DNA of 33,497 nucleotides from NCBI GenBank assembly GCA_018812265.1, contig JAHJDG010000197.1, positions 1 to 33,497 on the forward strand. The letters run 5' to 3'. The notes beneath the pieces were generated by a model. The model did not search any database and was not told the origin of the DNA. It saw only the letters and a list, made by a program, of their open reading frames with translations. Below are positions 1,510 through 33,497 of the stretch, piece by piece. Both the position numbers and the translations under genes were made by a program. Position 1 is the first letter of the stretch; every line of letters starts with the position of its first letter. The stretch comes from a bacterium. GTDB taxonomy: Bacteria; Electryoneota; RPQS01.

Positions 1510-2490
1510 GTGAAACGTTGGATCCTTGGTTTCTGTGTTCTGGCCATGGTGGTCTCAACTCCATCGGCACGGGGCTACACCCTTTCCGGTCAGGTTCTGG
1601 GCGGGCAGACCGGACTGACGCTTCTTAAGTACGTGTTTGCCGTCCCGGCGACGCTCGACACGTTCTATGTCACTATCGCCATACCGTTTTTGAATACCTA
1701 TGCCTTTTTGAATCTGGACTCGGGTGGCTACGTACTGTTTGCCTATCAGGACCTCAATACCAACATCGTTCCCGATCTCGACGAACCACGCGGTTTCTAC
1801 GGCGGGGATATCCCACAGGTGTTTCAACTGCTGGGGGACTCCAGCGGAGTGGATATCGAGCTTCATCCGCCCAATCAAGGAGGGTTTTCCGGTTCCATCA
1901 GCTACTCCGGCGCCAACACCGGGACCACGCTTATCCTTGCCCACTACACTCCCGACTTCTCGGATTTGCCGCATGGAGGCAGCCTCCTCTTCAACAACAC
2001 GGGGAGCGGTGATTATACCGCACTGGTGGATAGTTTCACCACATATTACGCTTATGCGTTCATGGATGTCAACAACAACTTCGCCTGGGACCCGGGTGAA
2101 CCACGGGGAGTGTACGGGGGTGAAGCCCCTCAACCCATCGTAGTACAGGAGACGAACTTCCCCGAAAACATTGACATCATGATGGAAGAAACGTCGGGGA
2201 TTGCGCTACGGCCGTTTGCGCAAGCGAAGAGTTTCACTTTGGAGAAGGTTTACCCTAATCCTTTCAACAGCATAGCCACCGTGGCATTTACTCTTGCTTA
2301 TCCATTAGCGATTGAGCTGTCAGTGTTCGATGTACTGGGACGGCAGGTTGCCACGCTGACTCGGGGAATGTATACTACTGGAGAACATCAAGTTCCTTTC
2401 GATGCGGAGGGGCTGGCCAGTGGAGTGTATCTGGTTCGGCTTTCCGGATCGGAAGGGCGTGTATCGAAGCCGGTTTTACTGGTTCGATAA
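1510..2490 (+). CDS. Secreted protein with duplicated acidic motif and T9SS type A sorting domain
   Basis: The GTG start follows GGGAGGAA at 1500-1507. Residues 1-22 are a signal peptide (MKRWILGF, hydrophobic core, SARG). Two similar modules follow, each ending in an Asp/Asn loop: D-L-N-T-N-I-V-P-D then EPRGFYGG near residues 81-99, and D-V-N-N-N-F-A-W-D then GEPRGVYGG near 186-204. The spacing of acidic side chains resembles a calcium-binding loop; that is inference. The last ~80 residues are a classical T9SS type A C-terminal domain (VYPNPFN, VFDVLGRQVATL, SGVYLVRL, ending VLLVR), which sends the protein through the outer membrane by the PorSS/T9SS. It lies 37 bases after the beta-helix gene, in the same direction. 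Substrate or ligand unknown. Confidence 0.85.
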   Translation: MKRWILGFCVLAMVVSTPSARGYTLSGQVLGGQTGLTLLKYVFAVPATLDTFYVTIAIPFLNTYAFLNLDSGGYVLFAYQDLNTNIVPDLDEPRGFYGGDIPQVFQLLGDSSGVDIELHPPNQGGFSGSISYSGANTGTTLILAHYTPDFSDLPHGGSLLFNNTGSGDYTALVDSFTTYYAYAFMDVNNNFAWDPGEPRGVYGGEAPQPIVVQETNFPENIDIMMEETSGIALRPFAQAKSFTLEKVYPNPFNSIATVAFTLAYPLAIELSVFDVLGRQVATLTRGMYTTGEHQVPFDAEGLASGVYLVRLSGSEGRVSKPVLLVR

Positions 2491-5094: not shown

Positions 5095-6723
5095 TTAGTT
5101 CTTCTGCATCTGCGGCCGATGCGAGTGGACTGCATCGCGGCGCGGCGGGAGGAAGTTCACCGAAGAGCCGGTGATCTGGAAGCGGGTGACTTCCATCATG
5201 TACTCATCGGCGGGAATCGTTCCGCCGAAGGTGCGGGTGACTCCACCGACCACCGTGCGCACGTTGAACGGCAGCGATTGGACTTCCTCGATGCCGCAGA
5301 TAGACCACCAGTCCACGGCCACAATGTATTCCCCCGCGGGCGGAGTGGCGGTCCAGTAGATGTTCTCCGGCCGGCCGTTTTCGTAGTTTGAGCACTTGTT
5401 GTCGCGATCCAGCTCTCCGCCCGAAACGGTCGTGATGTTGGACCAGCCGCACCATTCGCTGTCGGGGTCCATCACCCACAGATCGAGATCCACGCCGGGA
5501 AGCGGATAGTACCACGTGAGCGTCACCTGAATATCGCCGGTGCCGACGGAAGTCGTCGGAAGCGGGATGCAGGCGCAGCGGCCGGTGTCGGGGCTGGTGA
5601 AGCTGCCGTTGCTGATGTTCGTGCAACGCGGATTGGTGTAGTGCCAGGGCTGATGCACCACGACGTTTTCCATGAAGATGTGCTCGTAGCGTCCCGGATT
5701 GGTCTCGCTCTCCCGTTGCAGGCAGAGCTTGAACGTTCCCTGGGGGAGGTACCAGTTGCCGGTACTCGCCCAGCCGATGGTGCCGATGGGGGCGAACAGC
5801 GGGCCGCTGCCGCTTTCCGGCATCCAGTCGCCCTGTTCGGGATAGAGCAGCGTATATTCTTCCACACACACCATCAGCCACGAGCTATGGCTCATGTTCG
5901 CCACGTTGATGCAGCCCGAGCAGCGCGCATCGCGGGCGCGGCTGGTGATGAACCACGGGGAGAGTTGGAAAGTCTGCGCGCTGATCTTGCGGGTAGCCGG
6001 ATCATACGAAGAACTGAAGAACTCGGCCTGCCCGGTGGTGGGGTTCTTCCGCCACAGAGCGACTTCTTCGGGATTCTGTCCTTCGGGGACCGGGACGGTA
6101 ATCTCGACGGGACGGGCAAAGGTGAAGCCCTCGGGACCGAACTGATAGATGTCCGAGATCACCGGCTCGCCGGTCGGCGGCGTCACCAAAATATTGTTGT
6201 TTCGCTCGACGGAAAACACCATCGTGCCGACATTGCCGTTTTCGAGTGGCGGCACTGCGCCCACCGGAACGGAAATGCGCGCTCCGAGCGGAGTTTCAAT
6301 GGTGCCGGAGTTGTCGGAGCGCACGGCGCCGCTGGCGTTGTCGGGGGCGGCCGCTTGGACGACGGCGAAATTGGCGTCGCTAACGTCAAATACGTTGGCG
6401 TCCGTAGCATCCGCGACCCTTATCCGGCAGCTACTCGCAGGCGTTTGGAACACCGTCCAATCGTAGCTGTTGGCATTGGTCATGTTCGTAGCTGCGTTCG
6501 TCCAGTTGTTGCCTCCATCCGTTGACCAGTCAATCGTGACCGTGGAGACATTGCTACTGTTCCAGGTAACTTGATGGATGCTTCCGGTTTGCCAGGATTC
6601 CCCGCCATTGGGGGAGGTGATGGTGATGGAACGTTGGGGAACCGGTTCGTCATCATCGCTGGGACAGCCCAAGAAGATCAGGGCGGGGATGATGAGCAGA
6701 ATCCAAAGCCATTTTTTCGACAT
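5095..6723 (-). CDS. Multidomain lipoprotein: Kre9/KNH-type Ig-like, ZU5-like and YfaP-like domains
   Basis: ATG 6723 has a GAGG ribosome site 5 bases upstream. The N terminus is a lipoprotein signal (MSKKWLWILL, IIPALIFLGC) with the lipid-carrying Cys at residue 20, followed by an acidic linker PSDDDEP. Residues ~34-120 match the Ser/Thr-rich Ig-like domain with ITSPNGGESWQTGS and WSTDGGNNW strands. Residues ~135-260 look like a ZU5 fold (GTIETPLGARISVPVGAV). The C-terminal ~140 residues resemble YfaP/DUF2135 (VTLTWYYPLPGVDLDLWV, PPAGEYIVAVDWWS). A middle part has several Cys residues and no family I recognise. Likely an outer-membrane-anchored surface protein; no catalytic site seen. A terminator separates it from the upstream same-strand gene, so it is probably its own unit. 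Confidence 0.8.
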   Translation of the reverse strand: MSKKWLWILLIIPALIFLGCPSDDDEPVPQRSITITSPNGGESWQTGSIHQVTWNSSNVSTVTIDWSTDGGNNWTNAATNMTNANSYDWTVFQTPASSCRIRVADATDANVFDVSDANFAVVQAAAPDNASGAVRSDNSGTIETPLGARISVPVGAVPPLENGNVGTMVFSVERNNNILVTPPTGEPVISDIYQFGPEGFTFARPVEITVPVPEGQNPEEVALWRKNPTTGQAEFFSSSYDPATRKISAQTFQLSPWFITSRARDARCSGCINVANMSHSSWLMVCVEEYTLLYPEQGDWMPESGSGPLFAPIGTIGWASTGNWYLPQGTFKLCLQRESETNPGRYEHIFMENVVVHQPWHYTNPRCTNISNGSFTSPDTGRCACIPLPTTSVGTGDIQVTLTWYYPLPGVDLDLWVMDPDSEWCGWSNITTVSGGELDRDNKCSNYENGRPENIYWTATPPAGEYIVAVDWWSICGIEEVQSLPFNVRTVVGGVTRTFGGTIPADEYMMEVTRFQITGSSVNFLPPRRDAVHSHRPQMQKN

Positions 6724-6921: not shown

Positions 6922-9900
6922 TTATCGTTCCGGACCTCCTCCGGAGCAATCCACCACCACTGAGTACTTCCGGTATTCTCCGGCAATTACAGCCGGTGGA
7001 TACCAGAACATCTGAGACCCGGCAGTACCGGTAACAATGTCTTCAAACACCCAGGTTCCTCCGGGCGGCGGGCCGACTTCATGGGGATCTGCGGTGCCGT
7101 AGATCTTGTAGGCGGCCGTTTCGGGAGCCCACCAAGCCAGTCTCATGCCCACTCCGGTTTCCGGATTGGGAGCTTGAATCACCATATTGGTCACCGGCCA
7201 GCACGGTCCTTCACCGATGGTCACGCAGTAGCACACCGGTTCCTTGTAGGGATTGGAGTACTCGAAGATGAGGTGCCAGTTCACTCCGTCAAACCAGAAC
7301 CGGTAGCAGTAGTCATGCGGGCCGCCCGGACGGCACTCGGGATGGTATAGGCAGTCGTCGAACGGTGGGCCGAAGCAGCCCGGAGTGATGGTCACGGTCG
7401 GGGGGAAGGGCATGGGTGGTGTGTTCAAAAGGATGTCGTAGATCTTGTGACAGACCACAAAGCACTCGGCATCGTTGTCATTCATCGAAGGCGGTACGTG
7501 GTCGCCCACGCAGGGGGTGATCGGATCCCACCGCTGGAGGGTGCCGGGCGGGGTGACGATGACCGTCTCCTCGTAATGCAACCGCCCGAAAATCGGATCG
7601 AGGAACTGCGCCACTACTGCCAGTTGGAATGTCTGTCCTGCGGCAAGTGTCCCTGGGCCGACCGGAAACTCCCAGGTGGTGTAATCCGGTCCCACACCCA
7701 TGAACGGGACGTTGATGGAGACACCCGGCTCGGCGGTCACGATAAGGTCACCGTCAGCCGGCGGCCCACCCATCGAGGTCCACAGCGTGACGTCGAACAT
7801 CTGATTCGCTTCGTCCAGCGACGCGAGCAGATAGGCTTCGTAGGGAACCGGTGTGATCGAACTGATTTCCACACAGTAGCAGACCGGTTCAATCTGCTCG
7901 TTCGAGTACTCGAATTCGAGAATCCAACTGCCTCCAACCTTGAAGACCCGGTAGCGGTAGTCGAATAGTCCCCCGGGTACGCAGGTCGGATCCATGCAGT
8001 TGGTGATCAGCGGATCGCAGCCCGGAGTCACGGTCACGAGGGGGATTCCCGGTCCGGGGAAATCGAGCAGAACGTAGTAAACGTCGTGGCAGACGATGAA
8101 ACACTCGGGCTGTCCGAAGTACAGTACAGATGGCACATTGTCGCCGGTGCACTCGCCGCCGACGTCAAACGGTATCAATCCTCCGGAAAGGTCCATCTCG
8201 ACCAATTCGGTCTCGACCTCGTCGGGCTGGTCCGGATCATCATAGTCAATTTCCACGAAGATCTGGCAGCGGCGGTTGGGATTGTACGGTTCGGGCGCGG
8301 TCGGCTTGCCATACACCACCCAGTCCGCGCCCACGCCCGCAAACGTCCACGTCGTCTCTTCAAAGTAGAGTTCGGGCGGATCGGCCCAGACGGTGATCGT
8401 ACCGCTTAGATCACACGGATCAACACCACCGGGATCGCGCGCCAGCAGGCTCACCTTGAGAAGCTGATTCTCGGCATCGAGAGCGACAAGTGTGTGCGTC
8501 TCGCACGGCTCGTGCTCGGCCGCGACCGTTACACAGTAGCAGACCGGCTCGATTTGCTCGTTGGAGTACTCGAACTCGAGCTCCCAGTGATCGCCGGCCC
8601 ACCACACGGTGTAGCGATAGTCAAACGGGCCGCCCGGCCTACACGCGGGATCGGGCAGGCAGGGGTCGTGCGGGGGGCCGTAGCAGCCCGGTATCACACT
8701 CACTATCGGTGGACTGGCCGGATCGGTGGCGTCGGAAATCGGAATGTGATAGATGCGGTGACACACCTTGAAACACTCGGAGGTTCCCGTCAACATCTCC
8801 AGCGGAACGACGTCTCCGGTGCACTCGCCGCCGACATCCAGAATATTCAAATAGCCGTTGCTGTTCACGATCACGTCTTCGGTCAGCCACCGGTCGGGAT
8901 AGGCCGGATCGGTGTAGTTGATGTAGGCGACAAGCTGGAAGGTTTCCCCGGGGCTAAAACTGCCGGGATCCACGTTGGGCGACACCGTATGCCATTCCGT
9001 GAACACGTCGAAGAACGAGTCAATATACGGGCCGATGGTGGCTCCCGGGGGAATGGAAAAGATGGTAATGAAGCCGTCGGCGGGACACTCCCATCCCTCA
9101 TTGCTGTGCGTGCGCACGGAAACCTCAAACTGCATGTGTCCTTCGTCCAGCGCGGCGAGTTGGAAGGTCTCGCAGTCGTAGGGGACGTTGCCCTCGTAAG
9201 TCACGCAGTAGCAGACCGGCTCGACGTAGGGATTGGAGTACTCGAAGCGGAGAATCCAATCCACGCCGTTGTGATAGACGTCATAGACGAAGTCCTGCGG
9301 GCCGCCGGGGACGCAGGGAGTCAACACACAATTGTCCATCGGTTGTCCCTGACAACCGGGGGTGACCGAGATAATTGGACGTCCGCCGCCTTCATTGTAG
9401 AGGAGTACGGTTTCGTAGATGCGATGACAAACCTGAAAACACTGCGACTCAAGGGGTACCATGCTGGGAGGTACCCAGTCTCCCATGCAAGGTGGTTCGG
9501 GATTCCACGGCGCGAGTGTGCCCATCGGAGTAACGATCACAGGCTCTTTGTAGGCAACTTGTCCTTCAAAGGGATCGCTGCCCGGCCCGAAGATATCGCA
9601 CTCGATGATGATCTGGAAATTTTCTCCGGGGTTGGTCGTTAGACTGGGATGGACCGGGAATTCCCAGGTGTGGGGCAGGCAGAATACGTCGAAAAACGAT
9701 TCCACCCACCAGTCAGGATCAATCTTACCCGGCGGATTAGTCGTCACCGTGAATTCTCCGTGCCACGGCCACGTGCAGTCGCTCGACCACAGGCTCACGT
9801 CCAGCGTCTGATGAGCTTCGTTCATCGCACAGAGTAAATACGGCTCCTGCGGCAGCGGCGTGTATCCGTCCAGAGTCACGCAGTAACAGGCCGGCACGTG

Positions 9901-11247
9901 TTGTGGATTCGAGTGCTCGAATTCGAGGAACCACGTTCCGCCGATGCGAAGAACGTCATAGCGGTATTCGCCCGGCAGACCCGGATCGCATAGTGGATTG
10001 GAGCAGGGCGTGGACATCGGCCCGCAACCTTCTTGCACGATCACGCTGGGTATGCCCGGCCCCGGGAAGATGAGCGGGATGTAGTAGATGTCGTGGCAGA
10101 CGATCATGCATTCAGGAACACCCAGCACGAGTTGTTCGGGAACATAGGCTGACGGATCGCAGCTGATCTCCGGTCTTAGCGTCCGCGCGCCTTTCTGGGT
10201 CGAGTAAATCACGTATTCGACGGCCCACTGATCCGTGTACTCCGGACACATCGGCTCGGGCCCATAGCTGAAGTAGGCTGCCAACATACACGTGTCGCCC
10301 ACATCAAACGCCCCGGCCGCCACGGGAATGTGCCATGTGTAGGGTTCAGAACTGGCTTCGAGACTCTGAACGGGAATGCTGATGTACGCGCCGGGGGGAT
10401 AGGAGAAGACCTCCATGGTGCCGCACGCCACGTGGAGCGGGTTGGTCGTCCAGACCGTCAGGTCGAGCGTTTGCATCTCGGCATTCATTACCGCCAAATG
10501 CTTCACATTGTATCCCTGCGGCTGATTGCCGGTGTAGCTCACACAATAGCAGCGCGGCTCGGCGGCCGGATTGGAGTATTCAAACTCCAGGACCCAGCGG
10601 GTGCCCGATGCATAAACCTTGTAGACATAGTCCGTCGGAGCTCCCGGGACGCAGGGTTCCATCGCGCAATTGATCCCCGTGCAGCCGGGAGTAACACTGA
10701 TGTTGGGCCGGCCCAGTACTAGACGCGATCCCAGATCCACATAGTAGATGCGGTGGCAAACCTTGAAGCAAGCCGAGGTCATTGGGCCCATGGAGGGAGG
10801 CACTTCGTCTCCCATACAGGGGGTGGGTCGCACAATCACCAGCCGGCTCAGTCCCGGGTCCCACATCACCTGCTCGGCATAGACCAGATCGGTGTAGGCG
10901 GGATCCTCGAAATCCACCATCGCGTGAATCAGGAACGGCATCATTGGCGGCGGCGGCGCCATCACAACGACTTCCGGTTTCACGCGGTACACTTCCGTGA
11001 ATACGTCGAAGAAGCTATCCACATAGGGGCCGAACTCGATTCCCGGAAACTCGCTCATCAAGGTGATGTGCCCGCTGGCCGGACAATGTCCGTCATTCGT
11101 CCACGTCGATACGGCAAACCGTTGCGGAGTTGCATTCTCATCCAGGCATCCTAGCAAATTACCGCTGCACTGGGCCCAGATCGGTGAAACCCAAAACAGC
11201 GGTACTACGACGAGGACCCACAAAATTGCTTTTTCTGAAGCCCTCAT
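6922..11247 (-). CDS. Exported 1441-residue Cys-rich protein with six tandem ~220-residue repeats
   Basis: ATG 11247 is chosen because AGAGAGGAG lies 7 bases upstream and a signal peptide starts there (MRASEKAILWVLVV, ending IWAQC); the in-frame ATG at 11271 has no such support. Six repeats follow. Each has a Cys-rich half with the pattern C-x-G-D-x-V-P, C-F-x-V-C-H-x-I-Y, P-G-C, C, C-x-P-G, D-Y-x-Y, W-x-L-x-F-E-Y-S-N and C-Y-C-V, typically eight Cys per copy. The other half is a beta-sandwich-like stretch (ALDEANQ, VSLWT, often FFDVFTE). A final FN3-like module ends the protein, and no T9SS tail is seen. I do not recognise the family. Four disulfides per copy is the simplest reading. Each copy also carries one C-x3-C-H, a rare heme c attachment spacing. 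It has its own promoter and terminator. Confidence 0.8.
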   Translation of the reverse strand: MRASEKAILWVLVVVPLFWVSPIWAQCSGNLLGCLDENATPQRFAVSTWTNDGHCPASGHITLMSEFPGIEFGPYVDSFFDVFTEVYRVKPEVVVMAPPPPMMPFLIHAMVDFEDPAYTDLVYAEQVMWDPGLSRLVIVRPTPCMGDEVPPSMGPMTSACFKVCHRIYYVDLGSRLVLGRPNISVTPGCTGINCAMEPCVPGAPTDYVYKVYASGTRWVLEFEYSNPAAEPRCYCVSYTGNQPQGYNVKHLAVMNAEMQTLDLTVWTTNPLHVACGTMEVFSYPPGAYISIPVQSLEASSEPYTWHIPVAAGAFDVGDTCMLAAYFSYGPEPMCPEYTDQWAVEYVIYSTQKGARTLRPEISCDPSAYVPEQLVLGVPECMIVCHDIYYIPLIFPGPGIPSVIVQEGCGPMSTPCSNPLCDPGLPGEYRYDVLRIGGTWFLEFEHSNPQHVPACYCVTLDGYTPLPQEPYLLCAMNEAHQTLDVSLWSSDCTWPWHGEFTVTTNPPGKIDPDWWVESFFDVFCLPHTWEFPVHPSLTTNPGENFQIIIECDIFGPGSDPFEGQVAYKEPVIVTPMGTLAPWNPEPPCMGDWVPPSMVPLESQCFQVCHRIYETVLLYNEGGGRPIISVTPGCQGQPMDNCVLTPCVPGGPQDFVYDVYHNGVDWILRFEYSNPYVEPVCYCVTYEGNVPYDCETFQLAALDEGHMQFEVSVRTHSNEGWECPADGFITIFSIPPGATIGPYIDSFFDVFTEWHTVSPNVDPGSFSPGETFQLVAYINYTDPAYPDRWLTEDVIVNSNGYLNILDVGGECTGDVVPLEMLTGTSECFKVCHRIYHIPISDATDPASPPIVSVIPGCYGPPHDPCLPDPACRPGGPFDYRYTVWWAGDHWELEFEYSNEQIEPVCYCVTVAAEHEPCETHTLVALDAENQLLKVSLLARDPGGVDPCDLSGTITVWADPPELYFEETTWTFAGVGADWVVYGKPTAPEPYNPNRRCQIFVEIDYDDPDQPDEVETELVEMDLSGGLIPFDVGGECTGDNVPSVLYFGQPECFIVCHDVYYVLLDFPGPGIPLVTVTPGCDPLITNCMDPTCVPGGLFDYRYRVFKVGGSWILEFEYSNEQIEPVCYCVEISSITPVPYEAYLLASLDEANQMFDVTLWTSMGGPPADGDLIVTAEPGVSINVPFMGVGPDYTTWEFPVGPGTLAAGQTFQLAVVAQFLDPIFGRLHYEETVIVTPPGTLQRWDPITPCVGDHVPPSMNDNDAECFVVCHKIYDILLNTPPMPFPPTVTITPGCFGPPFDDCLYHPECRPGGPHDYCYRFWFDGVNWHLIFEYSNPYKEPVCYCVTIGEGPCWPVTNMVIQAPNPETGVGMRLAWWAPETAAYKIYGTADPHEVGPPPGGTWVFEDIVTGTAGSQMFWYPPAVIAGEYRKYSVVVDCSGGGPER
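7222..10818 (-). repeat. Six-fold coding repeat, period 213-224 codons
   Basis: The C-x3-C-H codons lie at 10753-10770, 10093-10110, 9424-9441, 8758-8775, 8086-8103 and 7447-7464, giving periods of 660, 669, 666, 672 and 639 bases. The similarity is far stronger in the protein than in the DNA, so these are old duplications kept by selection. Copies 4 and 5 share SNEQIEPVCYCV, and copies 2 and 5 share FPGPGIP, suggesting uneven relatedness. Confidence 0.85.
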
Positions 11248-11376
11248 TGTCTTCTCCTCTCTTCGCGACATCTGCCACTTCCGTTGGGTTTTTCGTGATG
11301 AACACAGCGGATCAAGCAGAGCGGCTTGTTCGTGATATGATTCACTTTTGCTTTCCTACTCATAGCTCTCAGAAGA

Positions 11377-17155: not shown

Positions 17156-18502
17156 ATGATCCGTGCAATGGGGATAGTGCTTTGTTTTGTCGCAATGGTC
17201 TGCCTACATGCCGGGAACACTCTGGCCGCCGACGAGACGGTCAAGGGCAAGTGCATGACCTGCCATAAGGAGGTCTCGCCGGGACTCTACCATCAGTGGT
17301 TCAGCTCGCAGCACGCCAAGCACGACGTGACGTGCTACGACTGCCACCATGCCGACCGCAATGAACCGGATGCGTATCTGCACGAAGGGGCGTACATCGC
17401 GACGCTGGTGACTCCCAAGGACTGCGGCGAATGCCACACGAACGAGATGAACGAGTTCGTTCCCTCGCACCACGCCAAGGCCGGGCAGATTCTCGAATCG
17501 GCGGACGCCTATCTTGCGCACGTGGTGGGCGGCGATCCGGCGGCGGTGGCGGGCTGCGAGAGTTGCCACGGAGCCAAGATCAAGATTGATCCGAAGTCGT
17601 CCAACAAGCTGATGAAAGGAAACTGGCCGAACTCAGGAATCGGACGGATCAATCCCGACGGCACGCTGGGCGCGTGCAATGCCTGTCATTTGCGGCATGA
17701 GTTTTCGCGCTCGCAGGCGCGGCAGCCGGAAACCTGCGGGAAGTGCCACCTCGGGCCCGATCATCCGCAGAAGGAGATCTACGAGGAATCGAAACACGGG
17801 ATCGTGTACTTCACGAACGTTGACGAGATGAATCTGGACGCGGATCGCTGGGTGGTGGGACAGGACTACTACGCGGCTCCGACCTGCGCGACCTGTCATC
17901 TCTCGGCCACGCGCAAGCAGCCGGTGACGCACGACGCGGGCGAGCGGATTTCGTGGACGCTGCGGCCGCCGATCTCCACGCTGCAGAACAACTGGGAACA
18001 GAAACGCAAGAACATGCAGGACGTATGCAGCGCGTGCCACGGGCCGGTGTGGGTGAAGGGACACTACGCGCAGATGGACGGCGTGGTGCATCTCTACAAT
18101 GAGAAGTTCGCCAAACCGGCTGGAGCGCTAATGGGCATTCTGAAGAAGAACAAGTCGCTTAAGAATCCGGCCGAGTTCAGCAATCAGGTGGAGTGGGTAT
18201 ACTGGGAGCTGTGGCATCACGAGGGCCGGCGGGCGCGGCACGGCGCTTCGATGATGGGGCCGGACTACACGTGGTGGCATGGAATCTACGACGTGGGCCA
18301 GCACTTCTACTTCAAGTTCATTCCGGCGGTTCAGGAGACGGGCGATGCGGAAGCCATCGCCTATCTGGACAAGCTCATTGCGGAAGATCCGTTCCACAAA
18401 TGGATGAAGCAGCCGACCGACGAGATCAAGAAGCAGATCCGGTCGGGTGAGCTGCAGAAGCTCTACGAGACGTTCTACCAACCGGAACTGGGCGGCAAAT
18501 GA
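17156..18502 (+). CDS. Octaheme cytochrome c of the hydroxylamine oxidoreductase (HAO) family
   Basis: ATG 17156 follows AAAGGACAGGG. A signal peptide (about residues 1-24, ending NTLAA) exports the 448-residue protein. There are eight CxxCH heme sites, at Cys 33, 60, 90, 134, 174, 194, 244 and 291. The region APTCATCHLSA, then THDAGERISWTLRP, KRKNMQDVCSACHG and VVHLYNEKFA, is characteristic of the HAO/octaheme family. It ends in a heme-free helical part with GPDYTWWHGIYD (370-379). Family members oxidise hydroxylamine or hydrazine, or act in reverse as nitrite/hydroxylamine reductases. Which applies depends on the tyrosine that crosslinks the P460 heme; Y371 or Y378 would need alignment to decide. 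Coupling to a membrane quinol-type cytochrome favours reduction (inference). Confidence 0.88.
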   Translation: MIRAMGIVLCFVAMVCLHAGNTLAADETVKGKCMTCHKEVSPGLYHQWFSSQHAKHDVTCYDCHHADRNEPDAYLHEGAYIATLVTPKDCGECHTNEMNEFVPSHHAKAGQILESADAYLAHVVGGDPAAVAGCESCHGAKIKIDPKSSNKLMKGNWPNSGIGRINPDGTLGACNACHLRHEFSRSQARQPETCGKCHLGPDHPQKEIYEESKHGIVYFTNVDEMNLDADRWVVGQDYYAAPTCATCHLSATRKQPVTHDAGERISWTLRPPISTLQNNWEQKRKNMQDVCSACHGPVWVKGHYAQMDGVVHLYNEKFAKPAGALMGILKKNKSLKNPAEFSNQVEWVYWELWHHEGRRARHGASMMGPDYTWWHGIYDVGQHFYFKFIPAVQETGDAEAIAYLDKLIAEDPFHKWMKQPTDEIKKQIRSGELQKLYETFYQPELGGK

Positions 18503-20001
18503 GGCGAATGTACCTCGCATTTCTCCGAGGTGCGTCGGCCAACGGATTCAGCCGGCTGGGCGTGATTCTGGTCACGTCGGCGGTGCTGTGCTTCATCGGA
18601 CTGGAACTGCTGCGGGTGCTGGGGATCGTAACCAACGCGTATATCGGTCTCATCACCTATCTGGCGTTTCCGCTGCTGTTCATCGTCGGGCTGATTCTGA
18701 TTCCTTTCGGCTGGTGGCGATGGTCGCGGAGGACCGGGCGGCCGATCCGCGAGCTGCTCAGCCGCCGATTCACCGAGCAGGACCTGGCGGTGAAAGAAGC
18801 GGGATCGAGGTTGATTCGCACGGTGATTGCGCTGACGCTTCTGAATCTGATCGTCCTGAGCGTCGTCAGCCTTCGCACGGTGCAGTTCATGGACAAGGCC
18901 CACTTCTGCGGAACGGCTTGCCATCAGGTGATGAATCCCGAGTGGACAACGTATCAGCAATCGCCCCATGCGCGCGTGCAGTGTGTGGAGTGTCACGTGG
19001 GCGAAGGCACGGAAGCGTTCGTGGACGCCAAGCTCAACGGTTTGTGGCAAATCATCTCCGCCACGTTCAAACTCTATGACAAGCCGATACCGACTCCGGT
19101 TCACAACCTGCGGCCGGCGCGCGAGACGTGCGAGAAATGTCACTGGCCGGAGATGTTTCTCGGCAATCGGACGGTGAACATCGCCCACTACGACACGGAT
19201 GAGGCGTCCACGCCGAGCTACACGACGCTGGTTCTGAAGGTGGGGACGGGCCGGACGGGACTGGAAAACGGCAGCCACTGGCACGTGGCCGAGGAAAACG
19301 AAGTGCGCTACGCCGCCGTGGATGACCAGCGGATGGAGATGTTGTGGGTGGACGCGCGGCAGCCGGACGGCAACTTCAAACGTTTTCGCAACGCGAATCT
19401 GCAACCGCCCGATGAAAAAACGAAGCCGGACGTGCGCGCGATGGACTGCGTGGACTGCCACAACCGCGCTACGCACATCTACGAAGAACCGGAGCGGGCG
19501 GTGGATCAGCGGATTCAGCGGGAACTCATTGATCGCAGTCTGCCGTATGCCAAGAAGATTGCGCTGGGCGCGCTGATGGGCAGCTATTCCGACACGGCTT
19601 CGGCAGTGAGGGGAATCGAAGCGCACATTCGCGGATTCTACCGCGAGCATTATCCGAATCTACTGGGTCCGCGCGGCATGGCGATAGACGGGATGGTCGA
19701 AACGGTCACGGGAATCTACCGGCGGAACCTTCATCCGTACATGGGCATTCGCTGGGGAAGCTATCCCAATCATCTCGGACACGCGGGCGAGGGCGGATGT
19801 TTCCGCTGCCACAATCCCCGGATGGTGGATGACGAGGGCAAGTCTATCTCGATGGATTGCACGCTCTGTCATTCGATCCTTGCCTATGACGAACCCGCGC
19901 CCTATGCGTATCTGTTCCTGCCCGACGACACGACGGCGGGAGTGAAACGGTACATGGCGAAATACCTGTGGGAGGAGTTCTCGAAAGCGGCGACACAGTA
20001 G
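18499..20001 (+). CDS. NapC/NirT (ImcH-like) inner-membrane multiheme cytochrome c
   Basis: ATG 18499 overlaps the TGA of the octaheme gene (ATGA), so the two are coupled. Three membrane helices lie at about residues 21-42, 47-72 and 105-127. The first heme site is C137-G-T-A-C-H142, a C-x3-C-H form, followed by QVMNPEWTTYQQSPHARVQC and CVECH (162-166) as in the NapC/NrfH fold. Further CxxCH sites are at 211, 317, 434 and 454, six hemes in all. NapC/NirT proteins take electrons from menaquinol and pass them to periplasmic cytochromes. Three helices before a long multiheme part recall ImcH-type proteins of metal reducers. The likely partner is the octaheme protein. 500 residues, complete. Confidence 0.87.
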   Translation: MRRMYLAFLRGASANGFSRLGVILVTSAVLCFIGLELLRVLGIVTNAYIGLITYLAFPLLFIVGLILIPFGWWRWSRRTGRPIRELLSRRFTEQDLAVKEAGSRLIRTVIALTLLNLIVLSVVSLRTVQFMDKAHFCGTACHQVMNPEWTTYQQSPHARVQCVECHVGEGTEAFVDAKLNGLWQIISATFKLYDKPIPTPVHNLRPARETCEKCHWPEMFLGNRTVNIAHYDTDEASTPSYTTLVLKVGTGRTGLENGSHWHVAEENEVRYAAVDDQRMEMLWVDARQPDGNFKRFRNANLQPPDEKTKPDVRAMDCVDCHNRATHIYEEPERAVDQRIQRELIDRSLPYAKKIALGALMGSYSDTASAVRGIEAHIRGFYREHYPNLLGPRGMAIDGMVETVTGIYRRNLHPYMGIRWGSYPNHLGHAGEGGCFRCHNPRMVDDEGKSISMDCTLCHSILAYDEPAPYAYLFLPDDTTAGVKRYMAKYLWEEFSKAATQ

Positions 20002-30948: not shown

Positions 30949-33497
30949 CTATCGGATCAATACCATTTTCTTGGCGGCGAAAAATTCTCCGGCTCGGAGC
31001 TGACAAATGTAAACGCCCGATGCCATGGAATATCCGGACGTGTTCTTGCCGTTCCAGATGATTCGATGCTCGCCGGCCGGTCGTACCTCGTCCATCAACT
31101 TGATCACTTCCTGTCCGAGGAGATTGAACACCCGGAGTTCGACCCGCACGGCGGCGAACAGATCAAACCTGATTTCCGTGTTGGGATTGAACGGATTGGG
31201 ATAGTTCTGGTAGAGAACGTGACGCAACGGCATCGGAGGAGGCGAATCATCGTTTGCCAGACCGAGGGCAACAATGCGTTGTCCGTAGAAATCATACTGA
31301 GCAGAGGCGGATTGCTGGAGGTCCTGCGACCAGAACACGACGGCGCTGCCATCCAAACCGGGAACAAGAACCGGAGACACGTCGGCATTGGCGGCGGTGT
31401 CGCTGATGAGGCCGCCGATTTCCGGAATCCAATAGGGATCCGGCCCCGCCAATCCGTCGCCGTTCAAATGCGTGGCGGAGATGTGCGACTTGCCGAGGCC
31501 ATCTCCCACGTCCTCCCAAGCTACATATACGCCTCCGTTGTAATCCGAGACAACCGCGGGATTGAGCTGGTGGCCGGGTAGGTTGCACACGACTTGGCCG
31601 CTGTCACTCCATAGACGAATGCCTTCCGGAGAGATTCTCTGTGAGTAGATGTTGGTTAGGCTGGGGTCGTTGGTAACACCGTCTTTCCACACAACGATCA
31701 GATTGCCCGCATTGTCGAGCAGCGGCCGGGACTGTCTTTGTTCGCTTGCGCGTAGGGAAACCGGAATCCCCCGGTGCTGCCATAGCTCCGTCCCATCAGC
31801 GGAAACATGCTGAGCATAGACTTTCCGGTAATATGGCGCGCCAACCGTTTTGAGCCACGTGCAGTAGGCGCCACCTTGGCCATCGGAAGCCAGTTTGGGT
31901 TGAATGGCTCTCCAGGAATCGGCGGAATCACTCAGGATAACCGTCCAGAGGATGTTTCCGTCTGCGGTAATGCGTGCCAGACGGTACTGGGGTCCCGCTC
32001 CTTCCCACGCCACCAGGCAACTGCCGTCAGTTGCCGTCACGACCTTGGATTCATTCATCTGGTAAAAAGTGATAGTATCCAGTTGAACCGGAGCGGGCCA
32101 CATCCGCTCGCACTCCGAATTCATTCGCATCAGGTAGAATCCATCGGTTGGATACCAGAGCGAGAAGGCGACATAGCAGCCACCCACGCTGTCGGCGGAG
32201 GCCAAACCACCCGATTCATATCCTACATCTGCATCATCCCAAACCGACTTGGCCGTTCCATCGCCCATGACATGTCCATCAGCGGAAACATGTGCGAGAA
32301 ACGCAGCATATCCGTCTTCGTCGTTACCCGCACCGAGCAATGCGAAGAAACCGCCGCTGCCATCCGCACAGGCTTGGCTCGCATAAGCCCAGTAGTAGTA
32401 TGGATTCATGCCGGTCGTGTCGGGAACGATGATTGCCGTATCGGCGCTCAGCGTGGGCTGGCCCTGAATGTCGAGGATTTGATAGTACGTCTGCACTCCT
32501 GCCGTCCAGAACAGGGCGGTGCGCCCATCGGCCAAGGGAGCGGCGTATCCCTCGCTACCGGTGCTGGGCGGATACGACACAACGGAACGCCCTGCATCCC
32601 CAAGTAACCGCGTCCCGGTGGCGTAGTCCAGTTTCTGGAAAGAGAGCTTTCGACCATCCTGACCGTACAGCCCGCCCGCAAAGACAGTCAGGAAACCATC
32701 ACCTTGAGGTACGATGGCTGGCATCTGTTCATCGCCCGGCACAAGACAAACCTGAACTGCTCCCTGCGGCCAAGCGTTTTGTCCGGCGGCATTGAGGCGA
32801 ATCGCACGGATGTTCCGACCCACATACACTATTCCCTCCGGCCACCATTCCCACGCCGCAATCAGTCCGCCTTGTCCGTCACTGACCTGATGTGGCATGG
32901 ATCCGCATAGCAGCGTCCCGTTCTCTCCCCACAAGGCCGTGCCGCTTGGATCGAGCTTTTGACCATAGTAGTTACTCCCCCCACGGTAGTCACCCCATGT
33001 CAGCAGACAGCCATCACCCACGCCACCCGACACACTGAGAGCGACGCTGACACCGTACTGCGCGTCGGGAGCGGTGCACACCGGAATGCCGTTGGGCGTC
33101 CATTGCCTCTGCCCGGTGGCGTTCAAGTGCTGAGCCCAGATATCAGCGAAGTAATTGGTCCCATGCTTCCATGAGATGTAGCAGCCGCCACTGCCGTCCG
33201 GGGCAATCGCAGGATAGGAGTTGCTGTTCAGCGTGTCACAGGCCGTGATCGTTCCCCAGGGCTGCAAACCAGCCGTGGTTACTCGACTGGCTTTCGGCCT
33301 GGCCCCTTCCGTCCATGTGAGAATCATCCCACCGGAGCCATCTGTTGCTGCCGCATACGTGTCGGTGCTTTGACCGTTTACATAGATGTTTGGCCACGCG
33401 GCCACGCCCGTACTGGTGATGCGCTCGACGAAGACATATGAGCCGTAACCAACACGCCCGACCCAAGCGAGCATCGCACCACCGGCTTCATCAGGAA
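30949..33497 (-). CDS. T9SS-secreted beta-propeller-like protein, 5' truncated
   Basis: The frame runs past the right edge; the residues before the ATG at 33474 read PDEAGGA and belong to a repeat, so the start is outside the window. The visible ~850 residues contain about thirteen strands of the form DGSGGxxxxW or similar (DGSGGMILTW, DGSGGCYISW, DGQGGLIAAW, DGQGGAYCTW, YNGGVYVAWED), each followed by Q-K-L-D, Q-H-V-S or related turns, as in seven- or eight-bladed propellers. The last ~85 residues are a full T9SS type A sorting domain (LYQNYPNPFNPNTEI, VFNLLGQEVIKL, SGVYICQL, KKMVLIR). Secreted or surface-attached; ligand unknown. It has its own terminator and is not linked to nifJ. Confidence 0.87.
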   Translation of the reverse strand, partial: PDEAGGAMLAWVGRVGYGSYVFVERITSTGVAAWPNIYVNGQSTDTYAAATDGSGGMILTWTEGARPKASRVTTAGLQPWGTITACDTLNSNSYPAIAPDGSGGCYISWKHGTNYFADIWAQHLNATGQRQWTPNGIPVCTAPDAQYGVSVALSVSGGVGDGCLLTWGDYRGGSNYYGQKLDPSGTALWGENGTLLCGSMPHQVSDGQGGLIAAWEWWPEGIVYVGRNIRAIRLNAAGQNAWPQGAVQVCLVPGDEQMPAIVPQGDGFLTVFAGGLYGQDGRKLSFQKLDYATGTRLLGDAGRSVVSYPPSTGSEGYAAPLADGRTALFWTAGVQTYYQILDIQGQPTLSADTAIIVPDTTGMNPYYYWAYASQACADGSGGFFALLGAGNDEDGYAAFLAHVSADGHVMGDGTAKSVWDDADVGYESGGLASADSVGGCYVAFSLWYPTDGFYLMRMNSECERMWPAPVQLDTITFYQMNESKVVTATDGSCLVAWEGAGPQYRLARITADGNILWTVILSDSADSWRAIQPKLASDGQGGAYCTWLKTVGAPYYRKVYAQHVSADGTELWQHRGIPVSLRASEQRQSRPLLDNAGNLIVVWKDGVTNDPSLTNIYSQRISPEGIRLWSDSGQVVCNLPGHQLNPAVVSDYNGGVYVAWEDVGDGLGKSHISATHLNGDGLAGPDPYWIPEIGGLISDTAANADVSPVLVPGLDGSAVVFWSQDLQQSASAQYDFYGQRIVALGLANDDSPPPMPLRHVLYQNYPNPFNPNTEIRFDLFAAVRVELRVFNLLGQEVIKLMDEVRPAGEHRIIWNGKNTSGYSMASGVYICQLRAGEFFAAKKMVLIR

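Follow-up and report, generated by a model that had tools for sequence, protein, structure and literature searches.

The window, meaning the whole 33,497-nucleotide stretch of DNA that was analysed (contig JAHJDG010000197.1 of assembly GCA_018812265.1), belongs to a 3.5 Mb draft genome that is 97% complete. On its minus strand, at 6922..11271, it carries a gene whose 1449-aa product consists of an apparent signal peptide, six B-A domain pairs in series and a C-terminal FN3-like module. The N-terminal signal peptide (11173..11271; ...VLVVVPLFWVSPIWAQ) looked clear by inspection, with ATG codon 1 or 9 as the possible start. The pairs follow one another on the same strand as B1 (10843..11178) and A1 (10528..10842, eight Cys), B2 (10186..10527) and A2 (9865..10185), B3 (9517..9864) and A3 (9190..9516), B4 (8851..9189) and A4 (8518..8850), B5 (8179..8517) and A5 (7858..8178), and B6 (7540..7857) and A6 (7210..7539). 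The FN3-like module, with a Cys near both ends, occupies 6943..7209. A sequence-only reading had placed six Cys-rich copies at 7222-10818, a range that holds the six Cys-rich parts with their spacers but falls short of the whole gene. Directly downstream on the same strand lies a gene for a lipoprotein with a ZU5 domain (5095..6723).

The same reading had described a unit of ~220 residues. The repeat was present, but it proved to be two domains, B first (~112 aa, sandwich-like, with few fixed Cys) and then A (~108 aa, with eight invariant Cys), six of each. A single 220-aa domain was rejected since A and B formed separate profiles, and distant single-A proteins that match A without B also ruled it out. 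When a profile was built from five copies and used to recover the sixth, E-values ranged from 4e-28 to 2e-43 for A and from 1.5e-15 to 9e-33 for B, far below the best shuffled value of 0.017 (200 shuffles per copy), so that the six regularly spaced Cys-rich copies were confirmed inside one minus-strand ORF. Protein identity was 45-61% among the window's A copies and 32-46% among the B copies, which are thus more variable. DNA similarity between the A copies was no higher than in the shuffled control in a lenient gapped pairwise alignment, a figure that we took only as "no strong DNA similarity" and that agrees with the earlier claim of little likeness at the DNA level.

The Cys skeleton of A reads C1, C2-x3-C3-H, PGC or GC with C4, C5, C6 and C7-Y-C8-V, and the alignment of the six copies contained 29 invariant columns. 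The eight Cys and FE(Y/H)SN were present in all six A copies, as the sequence-only reading had stated; the C-x-G-D step that it also listed was missing from copy 2, which has CDPS in its place and FEHSN as its form of the second motif. Across 27 A copies the non-Cys residues H, F-E and S were strictly conserved alongside the Cys. Separately, the peptide [VIA][DE]SFFD[VI] turned up three times in the B domains, at strand positions that are not equivalent (9001-9018, 9682-9699 and 10999-11016), and also in copy 5 of the relative L067 and copy 3 of the relative L070. Codon matches to SFFD(V/I)F numbered four genome-wide, three of which fell within the repeat gene.

Profile and whole-protein searches of Pfam, NCBIfam, PHROGs and PADLOC gave no match over the cut-off for domain A or B, and PDB sequences gave no relevant match to either. 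A clear profile match to a described domain family was thus looked for and none was found, in line with the earlier statement that no known family has this pattern. Structures were predicted with AlphaFold2 for the B4-A4 pair and for A4 alone. The B4-A4 model showed two all-beta domains (pLDDT 94.7, pTM 0.89), and the A4 model six strands plus an extended irregular loop in which Cys 4-6 lie (pLDDT 93.3, pTM 0.85). Foldseek returned nothing at E<=0.001 for either of these confident models in the PDB and viral libraries. The weak matches of the B-A model were mostly generic Ig-like sandwiches, including the Omp28-type Ig-like domain (PDB 2r2c), with probabilities of 0.97-0.99 at non-significant E-values of 0.03-0.05. 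PDB matches of A4 alone had low TM-scores and E-values no better than 0.49, and the best match among viral models (BFVD) had an E of 0.063. The weak likeness of the pair to Ig-like sandwiches probably comes from domain B. The suggestion of a new fold held for A to the extent that no significant match exists in the PDB and viral structure libraries, and did not extend to B, which resembles an ordinary sandwich. For A itself, a new fold is possible on the predicted model, in the sense of that missing match and nothing further.

We compared the Cys pattern among the distinct sequences of domain A, about 52 in all. Three different proteins lacked both Cys 1 and Cys 3, and no sequence had lost Cys 3 while keeping Cys 1 (Fisher p = 1.8e-4, relatedness among the sequences ignored). 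One of these cases, L055, showed the double change against its paralogues directly, with SEC changed to SER and LCHG to IAHG. Such paired loss supports a disulfide between the first and third Cys of domain A, and the domain as a whole is probably held by disulfides. We also considered whether the Cys skeleton binds a metal, haem or Fe-S cluster in a redox or electron-transfer role. Multihaem cytochrome genes do lie within the window (17156-20001), the C-x3-C-H step is loosely like a haem motif, and the protein shares with multihaem c-type cytochromes a Cys-rich, exported character and the Cys-His step itself. Moreover, the disulfide oxidants VKOR and DsbB were both missing from searches of 13 genomes of the phylum, in which control genomes were matched. 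However, the protein contains C-x3-C-H and not a single CxxCH, several genes separate the cytochromes from the repeat gene, and the way in which Cys 1 and Cys 3 disappear as a pair while the other six stay fits a disulfide. Given the lack of CxxCH and the paired loss, we rejected this very improbable reading.

To follow the distribution of domain A, a profile was searched against 386 genomes, and 12 were positive, all in the window's own order. By lineage, domain A was found in all 11 genomes of the window's own family, in one of two genomes of the sister family, in none of the 26 other genomes of the phylum and in none elsewhere. The pattern scan for A used a tighter alignment, the broad 18-row alignment being too diverse. 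Within this sample, relatives were confined to one order, in a phylum within the FCB group, a distribution of the kind that the sequence-only reading had named as support for novelty. SprA was carried by some 40 to 45 genomes from other phyla in an overlapping sample, so the absence of A beyond the phylum does not come only from sampling bacteria without type IX secretion. No domain A was found in viral contigs, phages or plasmids. Records with domain A were JAPKYT01 (Lake Pavin sediment), RPQS01 (labelled candidate division KSB1), JAHIZR01 (marine) and JAGVEU01 (labelled Calditrichaeota). RPQS01 appears in the literature as an Electryoneota class (PMC10439189), and going by these accessions the window would probably belong there.

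Long relatives in other genomes of the family had A copy numbers of 4, 4, 6, at least 6 (in a protein truncated where its contig stops) and 7. In a tree of the units, copies 2, 3, 5 and 6 of the window paired with the same-numbered copies of L067, from another genus, with full bootstrap support. Those duplications therefore predate the split of the two lineages, as the earlier proposal of old duplications would have it. Copies 2-4 and 5-7 of L069 reflected a later block duplication.

Most genomes of the family also had two adjacent genes, for proteins of about 450 and 340 aa, and each of these contains a single A or A-like domain. In the single-A proteins that were inspected, the C-terminal end consists of an FN3-like part and a type IX type A sorting domain that scored above the curated cut-offs, and the window's own genome encodes SprA (SprA_N PF14349, E 1.9e-41). 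Together, the sorting domain on these relatives and the presence of SprA mark A as a module of exported proteins. The 446-aa protein L071, with the order B-A-FN3-sorting domain, looks like an intermediate between the single-copy and long forms. The window protein resembles type IX type A cargo (TIGR04183 / PF18962) in its apparent signal peptide and beta-rich modules, and its single-A relatives in the same order have the sorting domain. However, PF18962 and TIGR04183 gave no match in the window protein, the other long proteins also lacked a recognisable sorting domain, and A was in no described cargo family. Two more proteins of the window (1510-2490 and 30949-33495) contain, or weakly match, a type IX type A sorting domain. 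As a separate observation from sequence only, the paired single-A cargo genes in L024, L025 and L028 lie near ORFs resembling flagellar motor motA/motB.

The C-terminal module was examined in 11 aligned members. PF00041 (fibronectin type III) matched three of them weakly, with a best E of 0.0024, and did not match the window member; the modules are weakly alike to this family, but the window's differs in the Cys close to either end, a feature shared by 10 of the 11 aligned sequences. Searched with a profile of the module, the genome of the window yielded ten matches, the repeat protein counted, and many other exported proteins in the order also end in it (L004, L010, L011, L013, L015 and L021-L023). 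This Cys-ended module may serve as an end cap or as another kind of sorting domain. The long proteins, for lack of a recognisable type IX sorting domain, may or may not cross the outer membrane.

A protein that stays inside could be a purely structural fibre, spacer or lattice part of the periplasm or cell envelope, with repeats for length and stability and with no specific ligand. The long protein may indeed remain periplasmic for want of a sorting domain, its copy number varies among relatives, and stability would be a good use for disulfide-rich repeats. However, FEYSN was kept in nearly all copies of the long proteins and was absent from the distant single-A relatives with the same Cys skeleton, which suggests a function-specific face rather than a requirement of the fold alone. 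We regard the structural reading as rather unlikely.

The neighbouring ZU5 lipoprotein had homologues in the same place in L067 (62% identity) and L068 (45%), making three genomes in all. Beside the repeat genes of L033 and L069 it was not found, and on that side of the L070 gene there was only a weak Ig-like match. A surface-export signal of the form C-X-K-(D/E)2-X has been defined experimentally in Capnocytophaga (PMC5080379). From the lipobox Cys onwards, the three lipoproteins read CPSDDDEP in the window, CPKDEDDE in L067 and CPKDDDKDE in L068. CPKDED of L067 and CPKDDD of L068 fit C-X-K-(D/E)2 and CPSDDD of the window is close to it, the signal being known from Bacteroidetes only. By analogy, the ZU5 lipoprotein may be surface-exposed, and it is a likely partner of the repeat protein. 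The other genes of the window (amidohydrolase, sigma factor, cytochromes, pyruvate:ferredoxin oxidoreductases and others) showed no functional link.

Such a lipoprotein partner with a putative surface-export signal, together with conserved aromatic and acidic residues in A, would also suit a secreted B-A array that binds extracellular polysaccharide or particles and serves nutrient capture with the ZU5 lipoprotein. However, no carbohydrate-active enzyme or SusC/D-like transport gene was recognised next to the repeat gene, and neither model significantly matched the fold of a carbohydrate-binding module. We consider this role distinctly unlikely.

The reading that we prefer, at a probability of roughly one half, is an exported, rigid, disulfide-clamped surface stalk or binding protein, with disulfides, surface location, ligand binding and anchoring each inferred. 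The sequence-only reading had placed the fold at the cell surface or in cell-cell contact, and both stay hypothetical here. The signal peptide would export an extended protein of six B-A pairs in series. Each A would be a beta domain of six strands and an irregular loop rich in Cys, clamped by disulfides that include one between Cys 1 and Cys 3, and each B a sandwich-like spacer. Most likely the protein would then be located at or near the cell surface, forming a rigid stalk that resists proteases and shows six copies of one face, formed by the His after Cys 3 and by W-x-L-x-F-E-Y-S-N, to a putative ligand. Binding strength would come from the number of faces, and the copy number (4 to 7) would set both length and avidity. 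The ZU5 lipoprotein with its putative surface-export signal, adjacent in several genomes, could be the anchor. Counting against this reading are the missing sorting domain of the long proteins, the failure to find VKOR or DsbB in the 13 genomes, and the repeat genes of L033 and L069, beside which no such lipoprotein was found.

Repetitive bacterial adhesins and stalk proteins carry many Ig-like beta domains in tandem. The window protein is like them in its head-to-tail beta domains, variable copy number and apparent export signal. However, every alternate domain here is an eight-Cys domain with no sequence match or significant fold match, and no known adhesin or anchor domain is present. Domain A is an undescribed, so far order-restricted domain family within a familiar kind of protein. 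A further proposal, which we make only tentatively, is that A is a new fold, with six beta strands clamped by disulfides. On this view it first appeared in type IX cargo, as a module, within a single order of the FCB group, and was later amplified into a multivalent surface binder.

As far as tested, this undescribed family, which is confidently modelled and lacks a significant PDB match, belongs to one order of uncultivated bacteria. The roughly two dozen disulfides that a single protein would contain, in an envelope with no detectable VKOR or DsbB, raise the question of the route by which they would be formed. The family also offers natural variation, in A copy number (1, 4, 6 and 7) and in forms with and without the type IX sorting domain. 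The A family is a starting point for learning how the surface of these bacteria is made.
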